The notes beneath the pieces are model-generated. The model did not search any database, had not been told where the DNA came from, and saw only the letters and a list, made by a program, of their open reading frames with translations. A DNA stretch of 17,104 nt, from the NCBI GenBank assembly GCA_002686955.1, contig NYZA01000137.1, positions 1-17,104 on the forward strand, in the 5' to 3' direction. The translations under genes were made by a program, and so were the position numbers. Source of the DNA: Gemmatimonadota bacterium. Its GTDB lineage: Bacteria > GCA-2686955. Below, in pieces: positions 1,997 through 17,104 of the stretch. Numbering within the stretch: position 1 is the first letter of the stretch; each line of letters starts with the position of its first letter.

Positions 1997-2551
1997 TTGT
2001 TGCTGCTCCGATCGGCGCTGGCGGCACAGATCAAGCCGGTCCGCACGATCAACTTTCTAGAGAACCCGAACCTCGATGTGACATGGAAGCCCGATTCGGC
2101 GGTTTTCGGGAGCTGCGCCGACACATTCGAACACGTTGTTCTAGAGTGGACCCCTGAGAGCGACGCGAGGGTGCGGCTCAGCGAAAGCGATCTGATCGAA
2201 TGGTACTCGACGGCGAAGGCCGGTAGCTTCCTCGTCTGCAGTGGGAGTGGAGCGCGATTCGCCACCATCCGGCCCCGCCCGAACGGCGATCTCCTGATCG
2301 CCGAGCTCGAGCAGCATGCGACGAGCGCGTTGGTTCTGGCCGGTGACCCGGAGGGGGGTCTCTACTACGCCGGCAAAGGGCCGCTCAGAACCGGCATCGT
2401 CGACTCGACCGGGCACCTGACGAGCGGCATGAATGTCTACGGGAGCAGCACCAACAACATCAGGATCGGTCGAGGATCGAAACACCTTTTCGCGGCCCAG
2501 AGCGAAGGGCTCAATCTCTACCGCGCTGTCGCAACCCTTGCTTTCAATTGA
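1997..2551 (+). CDS. Secreted hypothetical protein, probably frame-shifted OFF at its start
   Basis: No family recognised. The ORF from TTG 1997 encodes 184 residues but starts in the middle of a hydrophobic core. In the same frame, codons from 1949 to 1996 add a charged Arg-containing n-region and the rest of a hydrophobic stretch (LAAVGILLLL) leading to an ALA/AQ cleavage site. That upstream stretch has no start codon in frame. The good RBS and ATG at 1921 are one frame away across a heptamer repeat. The mature part is about 175 residues with two Cys (GSCADTF and LVCSGSG), many beta-type stretches and Gly/Ser/Thr-rich turns, consistent with an exported beta-rich protein. It may still be made at a low level from TTG 1997, but the signal peptide would then be very short. 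Confidence 0.6.
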   Translation: MLLLRSALAAQIKPVRTINFLENPNLDVTWKPDSAVFGSCADTFEHVVLEWTPESDARVRLSESDLIEWYSTAKAGSFLVCSGSGARFATIRPRPNGDLLIAELEQHATSALVLAGDPEGGLYYAGKGPLRTGIVDSTGHLTSGMNVYGSSTNNIRIGRGSKHLFAAQSEGLNLYRAVATLAFN

Positions 2552-2590
2552 AGAGTGCGCGGTTGTGGCGAGCGGAGCCGAAGGGCGCGC

Positions 2591-2596
2591 TACGAT
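2591..2596 (+). promoter_or_regulatory. Possible -10 element (TACGAT)
   Basis: TACGAT lies 40 nt before the ATG of the ArnD-like gene. The same hexamer occurs in the predicted promoter at 15782-15787 on the other strand. No convincing -35 is seen at the usual spacing, so this is weak. Confidence 0.25.
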
Positions 2597-2636
2597 ACCA
2601 GTGGCCCGAAGTCACAACTCTAGAGCCCCGTCCCAA

Positions 2637-3596
2637 ATGAGCCTCATCGCGGCGATCCGCGTCGATATCTGCTGCCGGCGGGCGGCCACGGAGGCGCTCG
2701 CTCCGATGCGAGAGCTTCTCGATCGCCATTCGGTTCCCGCGACCTGGTGCGTCGCGACCGGTCCCGACCGCTCCGGGCTCGCGCTCTCGAACGCTTTGCT
2801 GGAGCCGGGCTTCTCGAGGCGGATGCTGCGGGTGAATCCTCTGCGCACCTACGGTCTTCGCAGCCTTGTGGCCGGCACACTGCTTCCCGCGGAGACGATC
2901 TTCTCGGCCGATGTGGCGAAAGCGCTGATCGAGATGGGCGCGGCGGGGCACGAAGTCGCGCTTCACGGACACGACCACCGGGCGTGGCAGAATCGGATCG
3001 GGCGCTGGCCGAATGAGCGGATCGCGGCGGATCTCGAGGCGAGCCGGGCCGCGATCGATTCGGCGGGGATCGAAGCCCGGGGATCGGCGGCGCCGGCCTG
3101 GCGGGCGACGGAGCTCTCGGTCGAGGCGCTCTCGGGGCTGGGCCTCTTGTGGGCGAGCGATCTCAGAGCGCGGGAGCCGCTACGTCTGGTCAACAGCGGC
3201 GGGAAGCAGCAGGGGCCGCCGCAGATCCCGGTCAACCTGCCCACCTGTGACGAGCTGATCGCCTGGCCAGACGTGGGAAGCGCGGATCGAGCCTCCACAC
3301 TCGCGGGGATGGTGAGAACTCTAGTATCGCTTCCCCCCCCTATTCCCCCTTTGATTTACTGCGCTCACCCCGAAGTGGATGCTCTGATCGACTCGCGCCC
3401 TCTCCAGCGTTTCGTTGAATTGCTTCGGGCCGAAGGGGGCCGGTTCGCGACCCTGGGGGAGATCGCGGTGGGGCTGACTGATCGGTTGCCGCTCCGCCGG
3501 CTGAAGCGCGCGCGCTGCCGTGGTCGGGGAGGATGGGTGGCCACCGACGGCTCCGAGCTACCCTGGCTGCAACATTTTGGAGGCGAATTGGGTTAG
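2637..3596 (+). CDS. ArnD-like polysaccharide deacetylase-family deformylase
   Basis: 319 residues, close to the usual ArnD length of about 300. ArnD removes the formyl group from undecaprenyl-phosphate 4-formamido-arabinose at the inner membrane. Matching blocks I recall from ArnD: IRVD at 7-10; GPDRSGLAL (42-50, ArnD GPDNMGRHL); HEVALHGHDHRAWQ (105-118, ArnD HEVGLHAWDHHAWQ), which holds the H110-x3-H114 metal pair; SAAPAWRA (150-157); IPVNLPTCDE (197-206); YCAHPE (241-246); and a GRGGW near the C-terminus. The second Asp of the ArnD VDVDT motif is Cys12 here, so one expected metal/catalytic residue is missing. ATG 2637 is chosen because the family begins just before the IRVD strand; the RBS is weak. 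It carries a C8 run at 3333-3340. No other arn genes are visible, but the GT-C protein at the left edge could be a lipid-linked sugar partner. Confidence 0.85.
   Translation: MSLIAAIRVDICCRRAATEALAPMRELLDRHSVPATWCVATGPDRSGLALSNALLEPGFSRRMLRVNPLRTYGLRSLVAGTLLPAETIFSADVAKALIEMGAAGHEVALHGHDHRAWQNRIGRWPNERIAADLEASRAAIDSAGIEARGSAAPAWRATELSVEALSGLGLLWASDLRAREPLRLVNSGGKQQGPPQIPVNLPTCDELIAWPDVGSADRASTLAGMVRTLVSLPPPIPPLIYCAHPEVDALIDSRPLQRFVELLRAEGGRFATLGEIAVGLTDRLPLRRLKRARCRGRGGWVATDGSELPWLQHFGGELG
2653..2687. repeat. Dispersed 35-bp repeat, copy 2 (inside deacetylase gene)
   Basis: Partner of 1421-1455 (29 of 35 identical). It encodes the first metal-site motif of the ArnD-like protein (IRVDICCRR), where an expected Asp is replaced by Cys. 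The overlap of a repeat with an active-site substitution is noteworthy. Confidence 0.4.
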
Positions 3597-3617: not shown

Positions 3618-4079
3618 GTGAATACGACAGACGCCATTCGACAGGCACCGGAGCTCAAGGGGTCGGCGACCCACGAGCGATTGAGGCGCGCTTTCGATGT
3701 TGCTTCCCGTTCGGCGCAGCGATACCTCTATCTCGCGACTATGGCCGAGATCGAGGGGCGCTCGAACGCCGCGGGCCTGCTGCGAGAGCTTGCCGAGACC
3801 GAGGCGGTTCACGCCCAAGGGCATCTCGATCTGATCCGCGGGGTCGGCGATCCGGTCACCGGCCTGCCGATCGGCGAGACCGATCAGAACCTCGACGCGC
3901 TGATCTCCAGCGAGATCGAGGAGGGTGAGACGGTCTATCCGAGCATGGCCAGGACCGCCCGCGCCGAGGGCTTCCTCGATATCGCCGATTGGTTCGAGAC
4001 GATGGCCAAGGTCAAGCGCGGATTCGCGGCGAGGTTGGGGGAGCTGTCGGAAATGGGGAGCGGCGCGGATCGTTCCTGA
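3618..4079 (+). CDS. Rubrerythrin-like ferritin-fold protein with incomplete di-iron site
   Basis: 153 residues, four-helix bundle. The pattern follows rubrerythrin: LKGS at 13-16, helix A (19-47), helix B with E62-x-x-H65, helix C with E99-x-x-E102 before YPSMARTARAEGF (107-119), then helix D (121-142). Two ligand positions are changed. Helix A has Arg31 where rubrerythrin has its Glu (AGESQA versus ASRSAQ). Helix D has K133/F136 in place of the second E-x-x-H. The C-terminal rubredoxin domain is absent. A normal di-iron peroxidase site therefore looks unlikely; a mononuclear or structural role is possible. The start is GTG 3618 with GGAGA 4-5 nt upstream. It lies 21 nt after the ArnD-like gene and 35 nt before the GyrB fusion, probably co-transcribed. 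Confidence 0.75.
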   Translation: MNTTDAIRQAPELKGSATHERLRRAFDVASRSAQRYLYLATMAEIEGRSNAAGLLRELAETEAVHAQGHLDLIRGVGDPVTGLPIGETDQNLDALISSEIEEGETVYPSMARTARAEGFLDIADWFETMAKVKRGFAARLGELSEMGSGADRS

Positions 4080-4114
4080 CGTACCCAGGGGGGCCGCGCG
4101 GCGGAAGAGCATCG

Positions 4115-6091
4115 ATGAGCACAGCGAAACGTAGCGACAACAACAAGACGCCCAGGCTGGCCTACGACGCGAAGAGCATCACGGTGCTGCCGGGGCTCGA
4201 GGCGGTTCGGCGGCGGCCGGGCATGTACATAGGTGCCGCCGACGCGAAAGGGCTGCACCACCTGGTCTTCGAGGTGGTCGACAACGCGATCGACGAATCG
4301 CTGGCCGGCTTTTGCGAGCGGATCTCGGTGGTGATCGGCGGCGACGGCTCGTGCGTAGTGGAGGACGACGGGCGGGGGATTCCGGTCGATCTTCACGATG
4401 AGGAGAACAAGCCCGCCTGCGAGGTGGTACTGACGACCCTCCATGCCGGGGGGAAGTTCGATGCGGGCACCTACGGGATCGCGGCTGGAATCCACGGGAT
4501 CGGCGTATCAACCGTCAATGCACTTTCGGAATGGCTCGTGCTCGATGTGTTTCGCGACGGCACGCACCACCGGCAGCGCTACGAGCGGGGAAGCGCTGTT
4601 TCGCCGGTCGACACGATTGGAGATTCGGATCGGCGGGGGACCCGGATCCACTTCATGCCGGATGCCGAGATCTTCGAAGGGGGGGAAGGGCTCTCGGGCG
4701 AGCGCCTTGCGGGGCGAATGCGTGAGCTCGCGTTTCTCGAGCCGGGGATCGAGATCAGTCTGCGCGACGAGAGGAACGGAAGGGACGAGCGCTTCTGCTT
4801 CGCGGGCGGTATTCCCAGCTTCGTCGAGTACATGAACCGCACGCGCAAGGTCTTGCACGAGGCACCGATCCACATGGTGGAACAGGTGAACGGAATGCGG
4901 ATCGAGCTCGGGCTGCAGTGGACGACCGGCTATGCGGAAGACCTGTCCAGCTTCGTCAACCATGTGCGGACGAGCGACCACGGCAGCCATGTCGACGGAC
5001 TGTTGTCGGCCATGACGCGCGTCATGAACGAGCATGCCCTCGGGCGGCGACTTCTCGAGAAGGGGGAACGGATCCAAACGATGGATCTGCTGGAAGGGAT
5101 GACCGGCGTGATCTCGGTGCAGCTGGCCGATCCTCAGCTCGAAGGGCAGACCAAGACCCGGCTGCGGAGCGACGAGGCTGGGGCAATCGTAGAAGAGGCT
5201 GTCGCGCACCACCTGACGAGCTATCTCGAGGAGAATCGCGCGGTCGCCACGAAGATCGTCGGGCGGGCGCTCGAGGCACAGCGCGCCCGAATCGCGGCGC
5301 GGCGGGCGAGCGAGCAGGCCCGGTACGAGGTGGCGCGGGCTGAAGTGAACGAAGATGTCTATCGCTCGCAGTTCGGCATCCGGTCGCAAAACTGGCACGA
5401 ATCGTGTACTTGGCTCACGCACGAGAATCTGCTCGAGGCCCACGCGGCAGCATCGAAGATGCCCGAAGACGGGTTGCTGCTGGACGTCTGCTGCGGCAGC
5501 GGCGTTGTCGGAGCATCGTTTCGAGGTCGGGTCGGGCGGATCGTCGGGCTCGATCTGACACCGCAGATGGCGGAGATGGCGCGCACGCGACTCGACGAAG
5601 TACAGCTCGGGAATATTTACAAGCTCCCCTTCGAGGAGGGGGTCTTCGATGGCGTGGTGACCCGCGAGGTGTTGCATCTGCTGCCCGAGCCGGAGCGGCC
5701 CGTCGCGCAGATCTTCCGGGTGCTGAAGCCTGGCGGGCAGTTCATCGTGGGGCATATTCTGCCCTTCGGGCCGATCGACGCACCGTGGATGTGGCGGGTC
5801 TTCAAGAAGAAGCAGCCGCTCATCTTTACGATGTTCCAGGAGGAGGATTTCCGAGCCCTGCTCGAGGGGGCGGGATTCGTCGATATAGAGATGACCGAGC
5901 AGACGGTTTGGGAATCGATCGATCTGTGGATCGATACCCACGAAACGCCGAATATCCATCGCCACGAAATCCGCCGGCTCTTCGATACGGCGCCGAAGAT
6001 GGTGCGTGACGTCCACCCCTTCGAGATCCTGCCGACGGGAGAGATTCGAGATCTGTGGAGGTGGTGTGTGTTTTCGGCGAGAAAGCCCTAA
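4115..6091 (+). CDS. GyrB ATPase/transducer clamp fused to class I SAM methyltransferase
   Basis: 658 residues in one frame. Residues 17 to about 405 align end to end with the GyrB 43-kDa domain: YDAKSITVLPGLEAVRRRPG, then E53/N57 (EVVDNAIDE), D84 (DDGRGIP), the ATP lid AGIHGIGVSTVNALS (124-138), and the transducer loop QTK with Q345 and K347. These equal E42, N46, D73, Q335 and K337 of E. coli GyrB, so ATP binding, hydrolysis and N-gate dimerisation look intact. TOPRIM (EGDSAGG) and all later gyrase regions are absent. From about 410 a complete methyltransferase follows: motif I LLDVCCGSG (455-463), acidic D480 (GLDLT), LPFEEGVFDGVV (504-515) and RVLKPGGQF (535-543). It shows no DNA-methyltransferase signature (no NPPY or PCQ), which suggests a small-molecule or lipid target. 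It aligns full length with the stand-alone enzyme at 7909-8649. ATG 4115 has GGAAGAG 5 nt upstream and fits the GyrB N-terminus. An internal in-frame GTG at 5345 could also start the methyltransferase alone. Confidence 0.9.
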   Translation: MSTAKRSDNNKTPRLAYDAKSITVLPGLEAVRRRPGMYIGAADAKGLHHLVFEVVDNAIDESLAGFCERISVVIGGDGSCVVEDDGRGIPVDLHDEENKPACEVVLTTLHAGGKFDAGTYGIAAGIHGIGVSTVNALSEWLVLDVFRDGTHHRQRYERGSAVSPVDTIGDSDRRGTRIHFMPDAEIFEGGEGLSGERLAGRMRELAFLEPGIEISLRDERNGRDERFCFAGGIPSFVEYMNRTRKVLHEAPIHMVEQVNGMRIELGLQWTTGYAEDLSSFVNHVRTSDHGSHVDGLLSAMTRVMNEHALGRRLLEKGERIQTMDLLEGMTGVISVQLADPQLEGQTKTRLRSDEAGAIVEEAVAHHLTSYLEENRAVATKIVGRALEAQRARIAARRASEQARYEVARAEVNEDVYRSQFGIRSQNWHESCTWLTHENLLEAHAAASKMPEDGLLLDVCCGSGVVGASFRGRVGRIVGLDLTPQMAEMARTRLDEVQLGNIYKLPFEEGVFDGVVTREVLHLLPEPERPVAQIFRVLKPGGQFIVGHILPFGPIDAPWMWRVFKKKQPLIFTMFQEEDFRALLEGAGFVDIEMTEQTVWESIDLWIDTHETPNIHRHEIRRLFDTAPKMVRDVHPFEILPTGEIRDLWRWCVFSARKP

Positions 6092-6208: not shown

Positions 6209-7912
6209 ATGCGCAAGCCATCACTAGCACCCGACCTATACACGGCGTCCGATACCACCGTCGATCAGCACTACATGGGTCTGATGCGTGAGCAGGACCA
6301 GACACCGGTTGCGACCGATTCGAAGCTGCCTCGTTTCACCCTCGTAGTCGGTCCCTCTCCATTCACCATGCCGCGAGGGTGGGAGTTCTTCCTCACCTCG
6401 CCCTACGAGGGCGCGACCTACATCGCAACGGTGCTCCACAACGCCGGATACCCGACACGGATCATCGATGTGCGCTATGCGCGCGATCCGGTCGGCGAGG
6501 CGGCCGGGCGGATCGAAGATGGCACCGATGTGTTGGGGATCTGCACCTTCGAGGACAACTTCCCCTTCGTCCAGAGACTCGTCGACCGGGTCAAGGACGA
6601 CAACCCGAAGCTGCCCGTGGTGCTGGGGGGGTCGTTGGTGACTTCGTCGTCCGAGGTGTTCATGAAACACACGCGCGCCGACATCGGAGTGATCAGCGAA
6701 GGTGAGATCACGATTCTCGAGCTGATGCAGGCGTTTACGGCGGGGCAGTGGCCGGAGCGTCTGCCCCATATCCGCGGAATCGTCTATCGCGACGAGAAGG
6801 GGAATGCGAGGCGAACGCCGCCGCGCGGGCAGATGCCCGATCTCGATTCCCTCCCCCGCATGCGTCTCGATCTCTGGCCGCAGGCGAACGATCCTCGTGG
6901 GCTGCAGCCGCAGATCATCTCTTCCTACAGCCGCGGCTGCTACATGGATTGTTCCTTCTGCTACCGGACGACGCCGCAGGAGCGGGTGAAGTCGCCCGAG
7001 AAGATGAACGCGGATATGAGATGGCTGAAGGAGCGCTACAAGACGGAGTTCGTCTTCTTCGTCGATCTGACCTTCAGCGCCCGGCGCGACTACACCTTGC
7101 AGATGATGGACGTCATCAAGGATCACGATGTTCGCTGGACCTGTCTGACCCGCTGCTCCGACGTCGATCCGGTGCGCCTCGAAGCGATGAAAGGGGCGGG
7201 AGCCGACATCGTTCTCTACGGCGTCGAGTCGCTCGGCAAGGCGAGCCTCAAAGAGGCGCGCAAGGGGAACAACGAAAATCTGACCGTGCGCGCCATGCAT
7301 GACACCTGGGATGCCGGCATCAGGTTCGGTGGACTGATGATCGTCGGGCTGCCGGGCGAAACGAAGGAGACGCTGGATCACGCCTGCGATTGGGCGGAAG
7401 AACACCAGCACATCACGCGCGTGAAGTACCTCTCCGCGATGCCGGGCACCTCGGTCTACCACGATGGCCTGCGCAACGGGCTGATTCGCAGCGAGCTCGA
7501 CCATATGAACTGGCTCTCGCTCGAACAGTCGTTGATACAAGACGAGTTCATCAACTACACCGGCATGGCTGAAGCGGATCTACGCACCGCCTTCCGGCGC
7601 CTGTACGACTCGTATCAACCCGGACCGGTCGTCGACTTCAAACACTGGCCCGACTACTTCGAATACCACCAGCCGAATCCGGCCGACGGCGCCGTTGCCT
7701 GCGTCGAGTATGCGGGCGATGGGTGGCGATCGAAGTTCACATCGGCCGGTCCCTATCTGCTCGAGGACACGAAGGGGTACGGGTTGGCGAATGTGGGGGC
7801 ACCGGGGGTGAGCGAGTCGGGCGCCGCGACGACGTGGGCGGCGGAGATGCGCGAGCAGGAGCACAAGGCCCCGCTCGTCGCGAAGAATGGGCGGAACGGG
7901 AGCGCGCGTTGA
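6209..7912 (+). CDS. B12-binding-type radical SAM protein
   Basis: 567 residues. Residues 45-190 form a B12-binding-like Rossmann domain: DVLGICTFEDN, VVLGGSLVTSSSE and ISEGEITIL are the usual landmarks. It lacks the DxHxxG lower-ligand motif, as is common in class B radical SAM enzymes. The radical SAM barrel follows, with C244-x3-C248-x2-C251 (RGCYMDCSFC) for the [4Fe-4S] cluster, YGVES (337-341) and GLMIVGLPGET (375-385). The class performs methylations, ring rearrangements or C-C couplings on unactivated carbons; the substrate here is unknown. The ATG has GGAG 6 nt upstream. It overlaps the next gene by 4 nt, so a two-enzyme modification unit is likely. The last 60 residues are a low-complexity tail that may be dispensable. 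Confidence 0.9.
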   Translation: MRKPSLAPDLYTASDTTVDQHYMGLMREQDQTPVATDSKLPRFTLVVGPSPFTMPRGWEFFLTSPYEGATYIATVLHNAGYPTRIIDVRYARDPVGEAAGRIEDGTDVLGICTFEDNFPFVQRLVDRVKDDNPKLPVVLGGSLVTSSSEVFMKHTRADIGVISEGEITILELMQAFTAGQWPERLPHIRGIVYRDEKGNARRTPPRGQMPDLDSLPRMRLDLWPQANDPRGLQPQIISSYSRGCYMDCSFCYRTTPQERVKSPEKMNADMRWLKERYKTEFVFFVDLTFSARRDYTLQMMDVIKDHDVRWTCLTRCSDVDPVRLEAMKGAGADIVLYGVESLGKASLKEARKGNNENLTVRAMHDTWDAGIRFGGLMIVGLPGETKETLDHACDWAEEHQHITRVKYLSAMPGTSVYHDGLRNGLIRSELDHMNWLSLEQSLIQDEFINYTGMAEADLRTAFRRLYDSYQPGPVVDFKHWPDYFEYHQPNPADGAVACVEYAGDGWRSKFTSAGPYLLEDTKGYGLANVGAPGVSESGAATTWAAEMREQEHKAPLVAKNGRNGSAR

Positions 7913-8649
7913 TCCAACAAGATGTTCGCGAGCATTTCTCGGCCAGGGCGGAGCGCTACGACCGATCTAGCCATTGGTGTGGAGATCGGGCTTTCTTGGA
8001 GAGAATCGTCGATCGCCTCGGCGCTTCGGCCGGGTATCGAGTGCTCGACGTCGCCTGTGGCACTGGGCAGGTGTCCCGGGTGATGAGCGAACGCGGCCTG
8101 CGGGTGCTGGGGCTCGATTTCACCGAGGCGATGTTTCGACAGGGGCGAGAGCTCACCGAGTTCTTCGTGGCGGGCTCGGGTGAGGCGATGCCGCTCGCGG
8201 GCGACTCGGTCGATGCCGCAATCGAGCGGCAGGGCATTCAGTTCATGGATGACCAGCGGGCGGTGTCGGAGATGGTTCGGGTCACGAAACCGGGGGGGCG
8301 GGTCTGCCTCGTGCAGCTCTGCGCCTTCGGGGCCGAGGACGAGCGCGAGTACTTCGAGATCCTGAGGCTGCGCAACCCCGCCCGCCGCAACTTCTACCGA
8401 GTCGAGCGCCTCGGGGAGCTGCTCGAGAACGCGGGCTGCGCCAAGGTCGAGATCCACTCGGAGCGTTCGAGTGAAGATGTCGAGGTCTGGGCCGACAACG
8501 GAGCCATTCAGAGCGAGTCGCAGAAGGCTATCGAGAGCTGCTACCGCTCGGCGTCGGAGCCCTTTCGCCGGCTGCATGAGGTGGAGATACGGGACGACGG
8601 CACGATCCTCGACCGCATGCTATTCGCCATCGCGATCGGTGTCTGCTGA
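7909..8649 (+). CDS. Class I SAM-dependent methyltransferase (UbiE/type-11-like)
   Basis: 246 residues. Motif I is VLDVACGTG, motif II ends in LGLDFT, and TKPGGRVCLV marks the motif III strand. TTG 7909 is chosen because GGGAG (7898-7902) stands 6 nt upstream, it overlaps the radical SAM stop as TTGA, and the length then matches the methyltransferase half of the GyrB fusion. Similarity to that half extends through the C-terminal region (hydrophobic-W-x-D segment, then H-x-x-E-I and D/P-x-G-x-I), so the two are paralogs within 4 kb. A cytosolic small-molecule or lipid methyltransferase is likely. The frame is open upstream to 7723, inside the radical SAM gene, but that start would add about 60 residues of shadow sequence. 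Confidence 0.85.
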   Translation: MIQQDVREHFSARAERYDRSSHWCGDRAFLERIVDRLGASAGYRVLDVACGTGQVSRVMSERGLRVLGLDFTEAMFRQGRELTEFFVAGSGEAMPLAGDSVDAAIERQGIQFMDDQRAVSEMVRVTKPGGRVCLVQLCAFGAEDEREYFEILRLRNPARRNFYRVERLGELLENAGCAKVEIHSERSSEDVEVWADNGAIQSESQKAIESCYRSASEPFRRLHEVEIRDDGTILDRMLFAIAIGVC

Positions 8650-10061
8650 TGCGTGAACCAGGGGGCGGCCCGACGCGGGCCGCGGCATCGATCGATGGGG
8701 AGCTTGGCGTGAGCGCCGGACCGGAGTTCGTGGCGGCGCTGACCGATATAGCGCGGCGCACGCCGCCCGCGATCTCGCGTTTCCGCCATCGGGTGCGCAA
8801 CCTCGTGCTCGTCTGCTCCAGCTCACGGGGTGGCTCGAGCGTCTTCGCCGAGATGCTCCGGCATTCCGATGATCTGCTGCACTTCCGGGCCGAGATCAAC
8901 CCTTTCTTCGTGCTCTCCGGTTTGTCCTGGCCCCAGAGCGGAACCGGCTCCGATCTCCTTCACGCGCACCATGCGGCGAGAGCCGATGCGCTCGATTTCT
9001 GGCTCTCGTGGGATGTGGGCGGTCAGGCCGAGCGATTGCGAGACGACGCAGAGCTCGACCGATTCGCCGTCCACCTGACCTGGCGGCTTCAGGCCCAGTG
9101 GCCGGAGGAACGATTCGAGATCGACGAGGTGCATCAGCGAGCGGTCGAGGTGTTGCGTGAGCCGAAAGAGAATCATCCGGGGATCGAATCGCCCCAGCAT
9201 TTCCATATCTGCTTCTTGAAGCGCCTCCGCCTGGCGCACCCGCGAGTCAATCCCCACTACTACGATCTCGATCCGGCGCTGATTCGTCGCCTCGATCCCG
9301 ACGCGCCGCTGCCGGAGGGGCCGCCGAGCGGCTTCCTAATCGAAGAGCCGCCCTTTGTCGCGACGATGCCGTGGGCGGTTCCGACGGCGGAAGAGATCGA
9401 GAGCCGGCCGCTCGTGATCAAGACTCCTAGCAATGTGTATCGGCTTCCTTTCTTCCGGGCCTTCTTTCCCAATGCCCGAATTCGTGTTCTTCATCTGACG
9501 CGTCACGCGGCGGATTGCATCAACGGGCTATACGACGGCTGGCGCTATCGTGGCTTCTTCTCTCATCCGGTCCAGCCCGCGCTCGCGGGGCGGGAGCTCC
9601 GGATCGGGTCGTACAGCGACGAGCAACCCGCTTGGGGCGGGAGCTGGTGGAATTTCGATCTTCCGCCCGGCTGGCAGGACTGGATCGATGCACCGCTGGA
9701 GGAGGTCTGCGCCTTCCAGTGGCGCTCCGCTCACGAGGCGGTGCTGGATTGGGTGCGGAGCACCGATTCCGCCGAGTACCTGCGCGTATCGTTCGAAGAG
9801 AGTGTGCTGGCGCCCCCGGCGAAGCGGCGCGAGCTTTTCGAACGTCTGGCGGCATGGATCGGAGTTCCCTACCGGGGGCCCCTTGCCCGGGCGGTCGAGG
9901 CCGGATTGCCGCCGATCATGGCGATGGCCCCGCCGAGGCGGGAGCGCTGGCGTGCCCGGGCCGAGCTGATCGAGCCTCTGCTGCGGGAGTCGGCGACGAG
10001 GGAACTCCTGGCGCGATTGGGATACGAAGTGCCGGCGAGGCAGTCGGGCGGAGGGGTTTGA
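8649..10061 (+). CDS. Sulfotransferase-like protein
   Basis: 470 residues, longer than the common 250-350. The phosphate-binding loop near the N-terminus is VCSSSRGGSSVFAEML (55-70), as in PAPS-dependent sulfotransferases. The second element is VIKTPSN (256-262) followed by RIRVLHLTRHAADCINGL (277-294), resembling the 3'-phosphate-binding Arg region, although the usual Ser after the Arg is not clear. Between these lies an insert of about 130 residues rich in charged and Pro residues. It would move sulfate from PAPS to a hydroxyl or amine of a glycan, lipid or small molecule. The ATG overlaps the preceding TGA by 1 nt (TGATG), so translation is coupled to the methyltransferase. Confidence 0.75.
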   Translation: MREPGGGPTRAAASIDGELGVSAGPEFVAALTDIARRTPPAISRFRHRVRNLVLVCSSSRGGSSVFAEMLRHSDDLLHFRAEINPFFVLSGLSWPQSGTGSDLLHAHHAARADALDFWLSWDVGGQAERLRDDAELDRFAVHLTWRLQAQWPEERFEIDEVHQRAVEVLREPKENHPGIESPQHFHICFLKRLRLAHPRVNPHYYDLDPALIRRLDPDAPLPEGPPSGFLIEEPPFVATMPWAVPTAEEIESRPLVIKTPSNVYRLPFFRAFFPNARIRVLHLTRHAADCINGLYDGWRYRGFFSHPVQPALAGRELRIGSYSDEQPAWGGSWWNFDLPPGWQDWIDAPLEEVCAFQWRSAHEAVLDWVRSTDSAEYLRVSFEESVLAPPAKRRELFERLAAWIGVPYRGPLARAVEAGLPPIMAMAPPRRERWRARAELIEPLLRESATRELLARLGYEVPARQSGGGV

Positions 10062-10068
10062 ACAGCGA

Positions 10069-11628
10069 ATGAGCCGCTCGCGGGTAGCTGCGGCGTTCGG
10101 GGTGGGCGCGCTGCTGGGCGCCTTCGGTGTTGGCTCGGTGCTGCTGAGCTCGTGCGAATCGGATACCCCGCGGGCCGATGCCGACCTGCCCTCGAGCGAG
10201 CTGAACCTGCTCATGATCGCGATAAACAATGTCGCGTGGGGACATATGAGTCTCGCTGGTTATGGGCGCGACACCACGCCGAATCTCGATCGCTGGGCGC
10301 GCGATGCGGTGGTCTTCGAGAACTTCTACTCCCACTGCTCCTGGACCCTGCCCGCGGGCACTTCGCTTTTCACTTCACTCTATCCATACACCCATGGAGT
10401 GTTGGATCGTTACCATGGCAATCTGCTCGACGACGATGTGATGCCCTTGGCGGAGGTGCTTTCGAGGAACGGATACGAGACGGCCGCGTTCACGGGAGGG
10501 CTCGACTACAAACCGATCTTCGGGCATATGCGGGGCTTCGATGAGATCGCGGACAACGACAATTTCACGAGCTTCGAAACGACATTCGCACAGGCGCGGG
10601 AGTGGATCGAATCACGGGACGATGGCGGCGGCTTTTTCTGCTTCGTTCACGGTTACGATGCGCACTCTCCCTTCAATCCGCCGGATCGCTTCAAGGGTGT
10701 GTTCAGCAATCTCGACGGCAAGAACATCACTGTTACGACGCAGTATTCGCTGCGAGGGTATCAAGCTGAAGAAGGGAGATATGTTGCCCACTACATCTGG
10801 AACGAAGATCCCTTCTTGAAGGAATCCGCCGAGAAAAGGAGCAACAAACGTTTTTCGATGGAGCGTCGAGTAGAGCTCACGCAAGACGATATCGAGTATC
10901 TCACAGCGCTCTACGATGAAGAGGTGCTTCATATCGATTCGCTGCTCGATCGATTCTTGCGCTCGATCGACGGAGAGGTTCTTCGCAACACGATCGTGGT
11001 GATCCTCTCCGAGCACGGCGAGATGTTCGCCAAGCATGGCCGCTTCGGGCGGGCCGGAACCGTGCGTGGGAATCTGTACGACGATGTGGTCCATGTGCCC
11101 TTCTTGCTGCGGGCTCCCGGTCTCGAAGGGAAGAGGGTCGATGCTCTGGCACAGATGATCGATGTCATGCCGACGGTCCTGGAGATCATGGGGATCTCAC
11201 CGCCGGTGGGGGCGCAGGGCAGGAGCTTGTTACCGGCGGTGGGGGGGGTTGTGGAAGTGAACGACTTCGGCTTCGCGGGGGGACGATTCAATCATGCCCG
11301 CAAGAAGCAACACCCTTTCTTTTGGGCGGAAACGATCAACGAGTCGATCCGATCGCGGCGATGGAAGCTGATTCGCGAGCTGATCCACCCGGCCGGTAAA
11401 GGGTGGGATCGAATCGAAGCGGCCGAGACCTTCGAGCTCTACGATGTGATGGACGACGGGGACGAAGGGCTAAATGTCGCCGATGAGAACCCACGGGTGC
11501 TGGCCGAGCTCTCCGATCGCCTCGCCACGTGGGCGGCCGCGAGCAAGAAGAGCGGGGCCGCCGAACCGGCGACCGTCGAGGTGCCTAGAGCGATGGAGCA
11601 GGAGGCCAGGGAGAAGGGATACTGGTGA
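10069..11628 (+). CDS. Sulfatase-fold lipoprotein, probable pseudoenzyme
   Basis: 519 residues. The N-terminus is a lipoprotein signal with Cys29 after LLSS. The sulfatase/alkaline phosphatase fold is clear: TPNLDRWA (70-77), SWTLPAGTSLFTSLYP (91-106), FVHGYDAHSPF (192-202), and a late HVPFLLRAPG. Key ligands are altered. The first metal Asp (ISxD) is Asn53, followed by Asn54. The nucleophile position holds Thr93 rather than Cys or Ser, without the CxPxR motif. The late D-H pair is Glu315-His316, and the His expected after the following HG is absent. Arylsulfatase activity is therefore unlikely; a binding or structural role fits better. It follows the sulfotransferase by 7 nt, with GGAGGGG about 12 nt before the ATG. 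A G8 run sits at 11241-11248. It converges with the minus-strand operon, the stop codons being 5 nt apart with no terminator between them. Confidence 0.8.
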   Translation: MSRSRVAAAFGVGALLGAFGVGSVLLSSCESDTPRADADLPSSELNLLMIAINNVAWGHMSLAGYGRDTTPNLDRWARDAVVFENFYSHCSWTLPAGTSLFTSLYPYTHGVLDRYHGNLLDDDVMPLAEVLSRNGYETAAFTGGLDYKPIFGHMRGFDEIADNDNFTSFETTFAQAREWIESRDDGGGFFCFVHGYDAHSPFNPPDRFKGVFSNLDGKNITVTTQYSLRGYQAEEGRYVAHYIWNEDPFLKESAEKRSNKRFSMERRVELTQDDIEYLTALYDEEVLHIDSLLDRFLRSIDGEVLRNTIVVILSEHGEMFAKHGRFGRAGTVRGNLYDDVVHVPFLLRAPGLEGKRVDALAQMIDVMPTVLEIMGISPPVGAQGRSLLPAVGGVVEVNDFGFAGGRFNHARKKQHPFFWAETINESIRSRRWKLIRELIHPAGKGWDRIEAAETFELYDVMDDGDEGLNVADENPRVLAELSDRLATWAAASKKSGAAEPATVEVPRAMEQEAREKGYW

Positions 11629-11633
11629 GTTGC

Positions 11634-12530
11634 CTACCGGGACCGGCTCACGCGCTCCACATGCGTCGGTCCCTTCGCGGGATCGGTGAGTACGAGCCGC
11701 ATGCCCGACAAAACCTGCTCGGCCGATTCGTCGCGCACTCTCTCTCGAAACACTCGGGGTGCCTTTCGATACTCCGCGAGCATGGCTTCGAAGGCGCCGG
11801 CGCCGGCCTCCGCGGCGTTGGTGAGACGGGTAGAATCGGCGGCAGCCCGGTTGGCGATGGTGGATGAATCGGCACGGGCCTCGGAGAGGCGCCGGTCGGC
11901 CCACGCGTCGGCCTCGATACGATAGGTGTGCCGATCGCCCCTGGCGCTGGCCACATCGTTGAAGGCCTCGACGACCATCGCCGGCGGAGTGGCTTCGACC
12001 GCGCTGACGCGGGTGAGTTCGATCCCCAGGCCCAGCGCGTCGAAAAGCTTGTCCGCGCGGCGCTGCACCCGCGATTCGAGATCGAGCTTGGCGGTGGTCA
12101 ACACGCTGTCGATCGGCATGGTGGCGAGGACCGCTCGCGCCTGGCCCGCCAGAATCCGGGCGGCGGCGGCCTTCGGGTCTTCAGCGGCGAAGGTGTAGGC
12201 GATCGGATCGGCGACCGTGTAGTGCGCCGTGAGCTCGAGATCGAGCAGATTCGCGTCGGCGGTCAGGTGGCGGCGGTCGCGGGGGGCGTGCGAGCGGGCG
12301 AGCTCGACGTCGACCCGCCGCACGGTCGTGACATCGACCGCGATGATCTCTTCGATCGGGTAGGGGAGACGGAGCGAGATCCCCGGAGGCACGACGCGGT
12401 CGACCCGGCCGAAGCGCAAGACGAGGCCTAGCTCCTCCGCGTCGACGTAGGCCGTGCACGCGAAGGCCAGCGCACAGGCCGCGAGCAGCGCGGCGGCGGC
12501 CGCCCAGGTCGAGGAGGGGCGTCGCGTCAT
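11634..12530 (-). CDS. hflK: HflK-like SPFH/band 7 membrane protein
   Basis: 298 residues, shorter than E. coli HflK (about 420) because the Gly/Pro-rich N- and C-terminal extensions are missing. A single hydrophobic anchor (9-27) precedes the SPFH domain (about 32-200): ELGLVLRFGRVDRVVPPGISLRLPYP is the typical first strand set. An Ala/Arg/Glu-rich helix (200-250) leads to AEYRKAPRVFRERV (252-265) and SGMRLVL, as in HflK. HflK and HflC form a large periplasmic cage around the FtsH protease and modulate it. The ATG overlaps the HflC stop by 1 nt. It is the last gene of the minus-strand operon. Confidence 0.85.
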   Translation of the reverse strand: MTRRPSSTWAAAAALLAACALAFACTAYVDAEELGLVLRFGRVDRVVPPGISLRLPYPIEEIIAVDVTTVRRVDVELARSHAPRDRRHLTADANLLDLELTAHYTVADPIAYTFAAEDPKAAAARILAGQARAVLATMPIDSVLTTAKLDLESRVQRRADKLFDALGLGIELTRVSAVEATPPAMVVEAFNDVASARGDRHTYRIEADAWADRRLSEARADSSTIANRAAADSTRLTNAAEAGAGAFEAMLAEYRKAPRVFRERVRDESAEQVLSGMRLVLTDPAKGPTHVERVSRSR

Positions 12531-13426
12531 CAGCGGCTCTCCGGTGTCAGCTCGAAGAGCGGCTCGAAGAGGGGGGAGTCGGCGGCGAGGACCAGCGTGG
12601 CATCCTTTCCGAGAATCCGGTCGTAGGCCTCGAGCCGCCGAAGGAACTCATAGAGCTCGGGGTCCTGGTCGTGGGCGGCCGAGTAGACCCCTGCCGCCTC
12701 GGCCTCGCCTCGGGCTCTCACCAAGGTTGCCTCGCGGCGCGCCTCGGAGAGGATGCGCGAGGCCTCCCGTTCGGCGACGGCGCGGATCCCCGCCGCCCTT
12801 TCGGCCCCTTCGGAGCGATAGCCGGCCGCGATCCGCTCCCGCTCGGCGCGCATCCGCTCGAAGACCGAGCGCTCATTCTGCAGGGGCAGGCCCAGATGGC
12901 TCAGTCCGACTCCGTGTACGGCCACGCCGAGCTCGGCCCGTGCGAGTCGATCGATGTCGGCGCGCACCTGCTCCAACACCGTTTCGATCTGCACGGCGCC
13001 CGGCTCGGTGGAGATCACCTGGGTGAAGGGAAGGCGTCCGATCGCTCCCCCGAGCTTCGAGGTCACGAGGTCTCGCAGCTGCGCTTCGGCCCCGGCCCGC
13101 GAGCCGACCGCTTCGAGGAATCGGCGGGCATCGTTCGTGCGCCAGACCACGAAGGGCTCGAGCACCAGCACCTTCTTTTCGCTGGTTAACAGCTCCGTGG
13201 CGGGCAGGTCCATCACCCGCAGCCGCGATTCGAAGCGATGAAGTGTCTGGATCGGCCAGGGCACACGGGCGTGCAGTCCGGGCTGCGTCACCACCCGCCG
13301 TGGATCGCCCAGAGTGCTGACCACCACCAGCTCCCCTTCGCGCAAGCTGAAGAGACAAGCGAACGCGGCGACCGCCACGATTCCACCGATCGCCAAGATC
13401 GCTTTCCATAAACCGGCCGTCATCAT
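12530..13426 (-). CDS. hflC: HflC, SPFH/band 7 FtsH-modulator protein
   Basis: 298 residues. The anchor is at 7-27, then REGELVVVSTLGDPRRVVTQPGLH, the SEKKVLVLEPFVVWR strand (82-96), and the diagnostic VFERMRAERERIAAGYRSEGAERA (188-211). GEAEAAGVYSAA and DPELYEFLRRLEAYDRIL (255-272) follow, as in HflC. With HflK it forms the FtsH-regulating complex in the inner membrane. GGGAG stands just before the ATG. The ATG overlaps the stop of the EamA-SPFH fusion by 4 nt (ATGA). E. coli has the order hflK-hflC; here an SPFH fusion comes first, then hflC, then hflK. Confidence 0.9.
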   Translation of the reverse strand: MMTAGLWKAILAIGGIVAVAAFACLFSLREGELVVVSTLGDPRRVVTQPGLHARVPWPIQTLHRFESRLRVMDLPATELLTSEKKVLVLEPFVVWRTNDARRFLEAVGSRAGAEAQLRDLVTSKLGGAIGRLPFTQVISTEPGAVQIETVLEQVRADIDRLARAELGVAVHGVGLSHLGLPLQNERSVFERMRAERERIAAGYRSEGAERAAGIRAVAEREASRILSEARREATLVRARGEAEAAGVYSAAHDQDPELYEFLRRLEAYDRILGKDATLVLAADSPLFEPLFELTPESR

Positions 13427-15735
13427 TCTCTCCCTTGCTCGAGCTTCGACGCCCGCGTTTCCATTCCGGACGAGGGGTGGGTGAGCCAGAGGGCGCCCGA
13501 CTCGGTGGTGAGCACCAGTCCGACGCTATCGAGCGCCGCCTCGATCTCCTCCAGGTAGGTTCGGACCCGGAAGGTGCGCGGATGGGCGGAATCGATCTCG
13601 GCGAGCAGCCCGAAACGCCCGGCTTCCCCCTTTGCCTTCGCGACGGCCTCGTGTCCCGCGGCCTTTCCCAGCTCGCGAGCCCCTCGAGCCCGGCCTCGGA
13701 CATCGGGGAGTAGGCGGGTCTCGTCGGCCCGCGCCCGGTTCACGGCGGTCGCCCGCTCTTCGTCGGCATCGATCACATCGTGGAACGCCGCCCGGATCTC
13801 CTTCGGAGGCTCCACCGCGGTCAGCAAGGCCCCGATCACCTCGAGTCCGTAGTCGCCGGCCTCGGCCCGCAGCGTGGAGGCGAGCTCGGCCTCAGCCAGG
13901 GCGCGGCCGCCGCCGAGAAGGTCTTCGGCGATGCTGCGCGCCCCCACCGTCAGCAGCGCCTTGCGCCCGGAGCGTTCGAGGCAGGTCTCGGCCGATTCCA
14001 CATCGAAGAGGTAGCTAATCGGATCATCGATCCGGTAAAGAATCGATGCCCCCACGTCGAGGAAGCTCTGGTCTCCACTGAGCACGCGCCGGGGTCCTGG
14101 CAGCTCGAGGCGACGAACCCGGCCGGTGTCGACCCGCGTCACCCGATCCACCGGCGTCGGCCAGACCAGGTGCACCCCCGGGTCGAGGAGCCGATCCCGC
14201 AGGGCACGCCCGAAGCGATCGATCACACCGATCTCTCCCGGCCCGACCACGACGAGCGCACCAGCCAGCCAGGCGACCAGCACCAGAGCAGCGATCGCTT
14301 TGCCGGTTGCCAGCCTTCCCAGCCCTCGGCTCACCGGATCCTTCGCGCCGACACCCAGGCAGCCGTGTCCTACCGCAACTCCGGCGAGCGCGAGCCCGCC
14401 CACGGCCATGAAGATCGCCGAAGCCGTCTCCGCGCTACCCGCCGCGAAGAGCCCCCCGACGGCGACCGCGGCCGCCGCGAGGCGCTCTACTTCGCCGCTC
14501 CGCCGCCTAGGAGCTCGGCCGGCCAGCAGTGCCAGCGCCAGCAGTCCGACCGCCACCGCCAGATCGGCACCGCCCGCCGCGTGCACGCTCCAGGGAAACG
14601 ACCGGGCCAACCCCACGGCCAGCAACGCCCCCACAACCAGGCGCCCACCGCGCAACCATCCGGCGGGCAGATTCGCCGCGGGGCCGAGCTCGAGCAGGAT
14701 CCCCACGAGCGCCGCCAGCACCACCCATGCCCCCGCCAGTGCGAGCTCCGAGCCGGCGAAAAGATGGAAGAGAACGAAACTGTTCAGTGCCAGGAGGAGA
14801 ACGACGCCGGGCAGGGCGTACTTGGCCAGATCGATCTCATCCGCCGCCCCGGCATCGCTCCCGCCGTCCCCCCCCTTCACGGGGGCCAGAGGCAGATATA
14901 CCCCGGCCAGAACCAAGAGTCCCCCGATCCAGCCCGCGCCCGAGATTCCCTCGCCGAAGACCACCAGACCGACCAGCGCCGCGAACACCACTTCCGAGAA
15001 GGAGAGCACGCTCGCCTCCGAGGCTGAAACGCCTCGCATGCCGCGGTTGAGGAGGACGAAGGGCGCGACCGTCGCGAAGATCGCCAGCCCCGTGGTCGCC
15101 GGAATCGCGTGCGCCGGCAGGCTCACCGCTCCCGCCGGCACCGCCGCCACCGCGATCGTCAGCAAGGCGATCCACCAGGCACCCGCCAGCGTGGCCCCGA
15201 TGTCGGTCCCCTTCGTCCGACTCACGCGCGTCATCATCAACACGCCCGCATAGCCGATCGCCGATAGCAAAGCCAGCAGATCGCCGAGCAGGAAGCGAGC
15301 GCTGGCGAAATCGTGGTGTGCCCACAGAGCCGCCCCCGACATCGCGCCCACGCCGAGCACCGCCAGAATCGCCCCGGCGATATGTTCGGGTCCCGCCCGC
15401 TCCCCCAGATAGCGATGCGCGACCGGGAAAACGATCAAGGGCGCCAAGTGGTGCAGGAAGACCGTGCTCGCCACCGTCGTGAGCGCATAGCCGCCGACGA
15501 AGCTAGCCGACGCGACACCGAGACAGAGGCCGTAGGGGAGGGCGACCCGCCAGAACTCGCGATCACGAAAGCTCGGCAGCACCCCTCGCCGCGCCGCGTC
15601 GAGGCTGAAAAGCCCCGCGACCATCAACGCCCGGTAGAGCGCGACCGAGAGGAAATCGGTCCCCGCCGCCCGCGTGAAGGCGGGCATGAGGCCGAAGAGG
15701 AACATCGCCCCCAGTATCTCGATTCGACCGCGCAT
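13423..15735 (-). CDS. EamA/DMT transporter fused to a multi-TM segment and HflK-type SPFH domain
   Basis: 770 residues. Residues 1-285 form an EamA-type drug/metabolite transporter of two halves with about ten hydrophobic helices (for example 8-20, 32-44, 64-84, 90-105, 119-139, 150-168, 182-204, 213-229, 242-260 and 267-284). A Gly/Asp-rich linker (287-301) follows, then a second hydrophobic block (305-460) of unclear family with about five to six helices. A last TM helix (478-497) runs directly into an SPFH domain from GPGEIGVIDRFGR (498-510) to EIRAAFHDVIDADEERA (646-662), then a helical tail containing SAHPRTFRVRTYLEEIE. The start is ATG 15735, with AGGAG 3 nt upstream and family alignment from residue 4. 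An in-frame ORF continues to 15810 but gives a poor N-terminus. EamA-SPFH is unusual: it may couple export of a metabolite to an HflKC-type membrane platform, or anchor a third SPFH subunit. Confidence 0.85.
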   Translation of the reverse strand: MRGRIEILGAMFLFGLMPAFTRAAGTDFLSVALYRALMVAGLFSLDAARRGVLPSFRDREFWRVALPYGLCLGVASASFVGGYALTTVASTVFLHHLAPLIVFPVAHRYLGERAGPEHIAGAILAVLGVGAMSGAALWAHHDFASARFLLGDLLALLSAIGYAGVLMMTRVSRTKGTDIGATLAGAWWIALLTIAVAAVPAGAVSLPAHAIPATTGLAIFATVAPFVLLNRGMRGVSASEASVLSFSEVVFAALVGLVVFGEGISGAGWIGGLLVLAGVYLPLAPVKGGDGGSDAGAADEIDLAKYALPGVVLLLALNSFVLFHLFAGSELALAGAWVVLAALVGILLELGPAANLPAGWLRGGRLVVGALLAVGLARSFPWSVHAAGGADLAVAVGLLALALLAGRAPRRRSGEVERLAAAAVAVGGLFAAGSAETASAIFMAVGGLALAGVAVGHGCLGVGAKDPVSRGLGRLATGKAIAALVLVAWLAGALVVVGPGEIGVIDRFGRALRDRLLDPGVHLVWPTPVDRVTRVDTGRVRRLELPGPRRVLSGDQSFLDVGASILYRIDDPISYLFDVESAETCLERSGRKALLTVGARSIAEDLLGGGRALAEAELASTLRAEAGDYGLEVIGALLTAVEPPKEIRAAFHDVIDADEERATAVNRARADETRLLPDVRGRARGARELGKAAGHEAVAKAKGEAGRFGLLAEIDSAHPRTFRVRTYLEEIEAALDSVGLVLTTESGALWLTHPSSGMETRASKLEQGRE

Positions 15736-15781
15736 GGACTCCTGTTCTCGTGGGTGGTCTGCCCGGCGACCGCGGACGGCC

Positions 15782-15790
15782 ATCGTATCA
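15782..15790 (-). promoter_or_regulatory. Putative extended -10 promoter (TGATACGAT) of the SPFH operon
   Basis: On the minus strand, TGA followed by TACGAT lies about 47 nt before the ATG at 15735. It is the same type of extended -10 as at 1782 and 6142. No clear -35 is seen. Confidence 0.4.
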
Positions 15791-15902
15791 CGGTGGCCCG
15801 ATTGTGGCATTGAGTCGGTGGGCGGGACTCGACCCGCTCCCGCGCAACCCGCTAGTCTCTCCCTTCCGACCTACCGACTTCCGCCACCTCAGGGACTTCC
15901 AA

Positions 15903-17104
15903 ATGGCCCAATCGAACCGCCTTCGCCCTTTTCTCCTGGCCGGCGGAGCCATCGTGCTCGCCAACGTGGGTGTCGTGCTCTGGTTGCTGCTCCAGCGCCC
16001 CTCGACGGGGCAGGAGGGGGGCGGCGATCGGATCGGCCGGCTCCTCGATGAGCGCACCCGCTCCGAGTCCCGCTTCGACCTGGCGGACGAGCCCTACAAC
16101 ATCTGCCTGATTTCGCTCGATGCCCTCCGCTACGACCGCACCGGCTTCGGCGGCAATTCGCGAAACGTCACACCGAACCTCGACCGCCTGGCCGACGAAT
16201 CGGTGCTCTTTGCCGACGCGACCTCCCCCTCGGCCTGGACCTTGCCATCCCATATGTCGATCTTCACCGGGCGCTGGCCCTCGATCCACGGGGTCGTCAA
16301 CAAGCTGCGGGTCGTCGGGGGCGATCGGCTAGAGCGGGCCTCCCTCTCCCCGGCGATCCAGACAATTCCGGAGCATCTCGAGGAGCATGGCTTCATCTGC
16401 GGCGGCTTCACCGGTGATGCCGGAGTTTCCGGCGAGTTCGGCTTCTCGCGCGGCTTCGATACGTATCTCGACGACGAGAAATTCGGGGGGCTCCCCCATT
16501 CCGTCCCCGCGGCCCTGAGCTGGCTGGAAGCGCATCGATCGGAGCGTTTCTTCCTCTTCCTTCACGGCTATGACGTGCACGGTCAGTACGATCTGGCTTC
16601 GGGCTACTCCGGGCGCTTCACTCCCGGCTATCAAGGCTCGATGAAAGGGGGCAAAGATGAGCAGGCGGAGATCCGCGAAAGATCGTTGCTCTGCTACACC
16701 GAAGAGGGCGGTCCGCGGGCATCGGATCTGATGAGCGAAGCCGACTTCGAATACCACCTCGGGCTCTACGACGAAAAGGTGCAAGCCGCCGACGAGCAGG
16801 TCGGTCGCTTCATGGATGCCCTGCGCCGCTTCGATCTGCTCTCGCGCACCGTCGTCATCGTGCTGGCCGATCATGGCGAGGAGTTCGGTGAGCACGGGGG
16901 GCTCGACCACGGTCCGACCCTCTATCAGGAGATGGTCCACGTGCCGCTCCTGATCCACTTCCCGGGTTATTCGAAACAGCTCGAGATCGGTAGACCGGTC
17001 CGCTCGATGGACGCTCTGCCGACCGTTCTCGACGCATTGGGGATTCCGCTCCCCGGCGGGATCGACGCCGTGAGCCTGCTGCCGCTGCTGCGCGGCGAGC
17101 CGCA
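15903..17104 (+). CDS. Sulfatase-fold membrane-anchored enzyme, 3' partial
   Basis: The frame is open from ATG 15903 to the right edge (400 residues seen). An N-terminal anchor (10-31) precedes the sulfatase/alkaline-phosphatase fold. Metal ligand Asp73 sits in ISLDALRYD, then TPNLDRLA (90-97), SAWTLPSHMSIFTG (110-123) with Thr113 at the nucleophile position, HGYDVHG (221-227), and ADHGEEFGEHGGLDHG (322-337) with D323, H324 and H336. In contrast to the paralog at 10069, all metal ligands look present. The Thr in a TLPSH context, instead of Cys-x-Pro-x-Arg, argues against formylglycine arylsulfatase and for a phosphodiesterase or phosphotransferase-like activity, though many such proteins are named sulfatase. 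No clear RBS is seen before the ATG; a weak TAGTCT (15853) could be a -10. It is divergent from the SPFH operon. Confidence 0.85.
   Translation, partial: MAQSNRLRPFLLAGGAIVLANVGVVLWLLLQRPSTGQEGGGDRIGRLLDERTRSESRFDLADEPYNICLISLDALRYDRTGFGGNSRNVTPNLDRLADESVLFADATSPSAWTLPSHMSIFTGRWPSIHGVVNKLRVVGGDRLERASLSPAIQTIPEHLEEHGFICGGFTGDAGVSGEFGFSRGFDTYLDDEKFGGLPHSVPAALSWLEAHRSERFFLFLHGYDVHGQYDLASGYSGRFTPGYQGSMKGGKDEQAEIRERSLLCYTEEGGPRASDLMSEADFEYHLGLYDEKVQAADEQVGRFMDALRRFDLLSRTVVIVLADHGEEFGEHGGLDHGPTLYQEMVHVPLLIHFPGYSKQLEIGRPVRSMDALPTVLDALGIPLPGGIDAVSLLPLLRGEP

Follow-up and report, generated by a model that had tools for sequence, protein, structure and literature searches.

The window, i.e., the whole 17,104-base contig that was analyzed, carries a single uninterrupted frame of 658 codons (4115-6091, forward strand) in which the 43-kDa ATPase clamp of the gyrase subunit GyrB is followed by a class I SAM methyltransferase. 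This assignment is based on the open frame, Pfam and the profile TIGR01059. Within the one chain, Pfam places HATPase_c at residues 43-183, DNA_gyraseB at 232-400 (156 bits) and Methyltransf_11 at 456-545 (75 bits), which confirms the initial annotation's claim that both modules share a frame. The remaining two forward frames over the same interval contain 19 and 5 stops. The gene starts with ATG, and a ribosome-binding-like GGAAGAG is located at 4103-4109, 5 bases upstream; promoter and terminator scans yielded no signal above chance, and an Rfam search yielded no match. No description was found when the literature was searched for GyrB-methyltransferase fusions, in line with the initial annotation, whose author knew of none. 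The reading we favor, to which a probability of roughly 45% is assigned, is that a clamp derived from a gyrB paralogue was joined to a small-molecule methyltransferase and closes with ATP, pairing the methyltransferase domains.

The clamp comprises a GHKL ATPase domain (residues 17-231; 4163-4807, forward strand) and a transducer domain (residues 232-403; 4808-5323, forward strand), both delimited by Pfam, by alignment with E. coli GyrB43 (6ENG) and by comparison with GyrB proteins. Its GyrB type is evident from the matches to HATPase_c, DNA_gyraseB and TIGR01059. The latter, the gyrB equivalog profile, aligns its first 391 of 639 positions with residues 17-404, scoring 470 bits, which is below its cut-off of 882, and 6ENG aligns with the clamp from Y5 through its final residue. 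TOPRIM and the C-terminal DNA-cleavage part are absent, and methyltransferase sequence stands there instead. Two further claims, that the GyrB part ends at the natural limit of the 43-kDa fragment and that TOPRIM is missing, are thus borne out by the alignment to the last residue of 6ENG and by the profile match, which ends before TOPRIM. Given TOPRIM is missing, the fused protein alone cannot serve as a gyrase subunit.

The conservation of clamp residues was scored by comparison with 38 GyrB proteins of diverse lineages. E53, N57, D84, Q345 and K347 align with E. coli E42, N46, D73, Q335 and K337 in 6ENG and are invariant among the 38 proteins, in agreement with the earlier description of the ATPase and transducer as intact. 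All 16 checked positions of the ATP site and N-terminal arm (Y17, I22, E53, N57, D84, R87, G88, I89, P90, K114, Y120, G130, R147, T176, Q345 and K347) hold the usual GyrB residue; Y17 and I22 belong to the arm. The ATP lid is present as annotated, but its sequence is altered, which the annotation did not mention: it reads YGIAAGIHGIG versus the GyrB consensus YKVSGGLHGVG. The substitutions include G124A, L126I and V129I, and the replacement of SGG by AAG and of K by G may make ATP hydrolysis less efficient. The transducer reads NHVRTSDHGSH versus NNINTxEGG(S/T)H in GyrB. Counting to residue 405, near-invariant GyrB positions are changed in 4 of 57 cases in the ATPase domain and in 10 of 37 cases in the transducer, with equivalent losses of 1 and 1 in the genome's own GyrB. 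Given the ATP site is kept while gyrase-specific positions have drifted, the nucleotide site is apparently under selection, and the gyrase-specific constraint appears to be lost.

The search for a complete gyrB elsewhere in the genome, recommended in the initial annotation, found one (634 aa, contig C133), along with a complete parE-like gene (646 aa, contig C210). With both on other contigs, the fused clamp is a third, extra copy. Membership in ParE, the topoisomerase IV subunit B, was rejected, as GyrB profiles outscore ParE profiles on the clamp and the tree places it with GyrB (100/100), on a long separate branch that calls for caution in reading this placement. The long branch among the GyrBs also indicates that the clamp is not a recent copy; an AU test neither favors nor rules out the genome's own gyrB as its ancestor (p-AU 0.49). 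We infer that the clamp is an old paralogue, out of topoisomerase service, that has retained its nucleotide site. The same long branch and the relaxed transducer positions would fit a passive fusion as well, in which a methyltransferase gene and a redundant copy of gyrB were brought together by a deletion. The clamp would then be a carrier or decaying relic, and the methyltransferase would do the work, alone or made from an internal GTG. This explanation is considered unlikely: a decaying relic should lose ATP-site residues randomly, yet all of them are kept despite the long branch, and the 405 codons contain no stop or frameshift.

GyrB similarity stops at residue 403-405. The first residue of a stand-alone methyltransferase encoded downstream (7909-8649, forward strand) aligns with residue 410, one before a GTG at 5345, and from there the fused and downstream methyltransferases are collinear to the C-terminus, with about 25% identity. 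Given this GyrB end and the aligned start of the paralogue, the fusion point lies almost exactly between the two natural module boundaries. According to the alignments to 6ENG and the paralogous methyltransferase, the junction comprises approximately 7 residues (404-410; 5324-5344, forward strand). The in-frame GTG (5345-5347, forward strand) adjoins the position homologous to the start codon of the downstream methyltransferase, and GAGGTGG at 5327-5333 is a candidate weak ribosome-binding site before it. This GTG is possibly a relic start or an internal start for a free methyltransferase. Its position favors the passive fusion, and it counts against the ATP-operated clamp in that it could allow the methyltransferase domain to be made alone.

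The source is one draft metagenome-assembled genome of 270 contigs, and a possible artefact was assessed from the assembled sequence. The draft state of this one genome and the lack of a second example would be consistent with a chimera, i.e., a methyltransferase gene wrongly attached to a piece of gyrB in assembly. This appears quite improbable, however. The join is in frame and a few codons from both natural domain boundaries, an arrangement improbable by accident, and the clamp is a sequence distinct from the genome's own gyrB (45%). In addition, the tetranucleotide fit to the genome is r = 0.795 for the GyrB half (versus 0.742 +/- 0.066) and 0.650 for the methyltransferase half (versus 0.652 +/- 0.076). 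The GC3 values are 0.82 and 0.78, respectively, the codon-position GC is continuous over the join, and the tetranucleotide composition of the whole window agrees with that of the genome's other contigs. Given both halves match the base composition of the genome, an assembly chimera is unlikely.

On present data, the architecture is a singleton. The searches used the full protein and residues 300-658 as queries, the latter chosen so that matches to clamp plus methyltransferase would stand out. No fused relative was found in approximately 1,100 genomes, nor in viral contigs, phages, plasmids or other genome contigs. Among 386 genomes over many families, with the source genome as positive control, only the window matched. 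The phyla around genomes G010, G036, G041, G025, G029 and G048 likewise yielded no fused relative, with a cut-off of 1e-128 in the G010 phylum that is strict enough for a distant fusion to escape, and with the best few candidates per genome scored in two of the phylum searches. The other genome of the same phylum in the collection searched has no fused relative either; given the phylum is represented there by two genomes, each about 84% complete, absence in kin means little. In that other genome, a parE-like gene (L044, G001:C826) was the only one above threshold and gyrB was not found, probably because the genome is incomplete. The ortholog sought on the suggestion of the initial annotation was missing from every collection searched, so that no ortholog supports the idea that the fusion itself is conserved or selected. 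The singleton status is a further point in favor of the passive joining of a redundant gyrB copy to a methyltransferase gene.

The methyltransferase occupies residues 411-658 (5345-6088, forward strand) and, according to Pfam, the paralogue alignment and the predicted fold, is complete at its N- and C-terminal ends. It was modeled alone because a joint alignment probably set methyltransferases on the GyrB half (the paralogue showed 16% identity, versus 25% expected); the full 658-aa chain modeled without alignment presents a pLDDT of 33.5. The AlphaFold2 model of residues 411-658 presents a complete class I methyltransferase fold, with a pLDDT of 89.5 and a pTM of 0.89. The best structural match is YcgJ (1XXL), with a Z of 26.0 and an rmsd of 2.3 over 223 residues, followed by BH2331 (1VL5) and then by natural-product and lipid methyltransferases. 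The SAM-binding motif I, LLDVCCGSG (residues 455-463; 5477-5503, forward strand), has its L, D, C, G and G invariant across 28 methyltransferases. The earlier claim of a full-length class I SAM methyltransferase agrees with the predicted fold, the match to 1XXL and the presence of motif I.

Most of the fold neighbors act on small molecules or lipids or have no assigned function, and the sequence searches concur; no DNA methylase family is found among the Pfam matches or the 25 NCBIfam matches listed. Judging by the model and the searches, the methyltransferase half resembles small-molecule enzymes rather than DNA methylases. A defence-system search gave nothing beyond a weak, partial hit to mad2 for the methyltransferase part, and this was not counted as evidence. 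GyrB and ParE clamps encircle DNA, which would suit an enzyme whose clamp holds DNA while its methyltransferase modifies the DNA or a bound protein. The occurrence of GHKL-S5 ATPases in DNA methylase operons (PMC2292703) points in the same direction. Such DNA- or nucleoprotein-directed methylation is nevertheless considered most improbable, given the type of the fold neighbors, the lack of a DNA methylase family match, the loss of conserved transducer positions, and a clamp of GyrB rather than MORC or paraMORC type.

The fused gene is preceded, at 35 bp, by a gene for a rubrerythrin-like protein (3618-4079, forward strand; Pfam), upstream of which a polysaccharide deacetylase/DUF2334-like protein is encoded (2433-3596, forward strand). 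A gap of 117 bp separates it from the downstream genes, which are tightly packed on the same strand. These encode a B12-binding radical SAM protein similar to HpnJ/BchE (6209-7912; Pfam, NCBIfam), the stand-alone class I methyltransferase, identified as a paralogue by alignment, a sulfotransferase-like protein (8649-10061; Pfam) and a sulfatase (10069-11628; Pfam). The TTG start of the stand-alone methyltransferase gene, 1.8 kb downstream of the fused gene, overlaps the stop of the radical SAM gene. The radical SAM protein has distant relatives only (best match 32%), and no second copy of the cluster was found in the contexts of its relatives examined. This set of neighbors points to a pathway in which a small molecule or lipid is tailored; that the fused gene acts in the same pathway is inferred more weakly. 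The rest of the contig includes a second sulfatase-family gene (15900-17102, forward strand), cut by the contig end. On the reverse strand, three consecutive overlapping or adjacent genes (11634-15810) each encode an SPFH/Band 7 domain (HflK/HflC-like). The frame at 13423-15810 (795 aa, reverse strand), in which an EamA-type transporter is followed at the C-terminus by an SPFH/Band 7 domain, is the second unusual fusion on the contig.

Methyltransferases and B12 radical SAM enzymes are found in aminocoumarin-type pathways, and the clamp keeps D84, R147 (E. coli R136) and T176 (T165), at the aminocoumarin contact positions. The fused protein could accordingly be pictured as a decoy, with a clamp that imitates the ATP site of gyrase and sequesters an inhibitor of GyrB of the aminocoumarin type, either produced or encountered by the cell, and a methyltransferase that modifies this inhibitor. 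We consider this very unlikely: genes for aminocoumarins or other gyrase inhibitors are absent among the neighbors, such a cluster would not typically contain a sulfotransferase and a sulfatase, and the kept contacts double as ATP-site or common GyrB residues, which makes them non-discriminating.

The GyrB clamp is among the best-studied ATP-driven dimer switches and is the target of several antibiotics. The isolated GyrB 43-kDa fragment hydrolyzes ATP and dimerizes with ADPNP (PMC7897471). Given the GyrB43 residues for dimerization and hydrolysis are kept, a dimer closed by ATP that pairs the methyltransferases is the most economical working model, and the ATP-gated dimeric methyltransferase suggested in the initial annotation is plausible as a hypothesis. 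According to this model, a gyrB paralogue would have been truncated where its 43-kDa clamp ends, and the truncated copy fused directly to the gene of a small-molecule methyltransferase. The clamp would still bind ATP and close as a dimer via its N-terminal arm, and its closure would bring the two methyltransferase domains together or apart, so that the methylation of its small-molecule or lipid substrate would be coupled to ATP-driven dimerization. Less securely, this substrate might come from the pathway of the radical SAM, methyltransferase, sulfotransferase and sulfatase neighbors. That a gyrase clamp has been removed from DNA topology altogether and now works as a switch, driven by ATP, that brings two small-molecule methyltransferase domains together or moves them apart is a more doubtful statement. 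If it is true, the GHKL-transducer module would have found a new role, and methyltransferases a new mode of control. The module would be reusable beyond topoisomerases as a general ATP-operated dimerizer, and the protein would be a naturally occurring blueprint for an ATP-gated enzyme. If not, the gene is still a clean domain fusion at natural boundaries from a sparsely sampled phylum.

In comparison with known systems, the clamp is like the GyrB 43-kDa fragment (6ENG, 1EI1, 4WUB) in its two domains, length, ATP-site residues and N-terminal arm. The fused protein differs from GyrB in that TOPRIM and the tail are missing, lid and transducer positions are altered, and a methyltransferase is appended. 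Structure 3CWV ("DNA gyrase, B subunit, truncated"), presumably from Myxococcus xanthus, is likewise a GyrB ATPase-transducer fragment without TOPRIM, but it has no methyltransferase and is far from the clamp in sequence (128 bits, versus 362 for E. coli GyrB). The 362-aa GyrB-like protein encoded at L085 (1882-2970, reverse strand) is also truncated and stand-alone and resembles the 3CWV type; by eye, it lacks the GyrB ATP-site motifs, which are intact in the fused protein. The complete class I small-molecule methyltransferase fold is common to the fused protein, YcgJ (1XXL), BH2331 (1VL5), RebM (3BUS) and AtmM (6UV6), at about 20% identity, yet only the fused protein bears a GHKL clamp. The MORC and paraMORC ATPases of restriction-modification operons (PMC2292703) similarly associate a GHKL-S5 ATPase with a methyltransferase. 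In those systems, however, the ATPase is a separate gene accompanying a DNA methylase, whereas here a GyrB-type clamp and a methyltransferase of non-DNA type form one chain.
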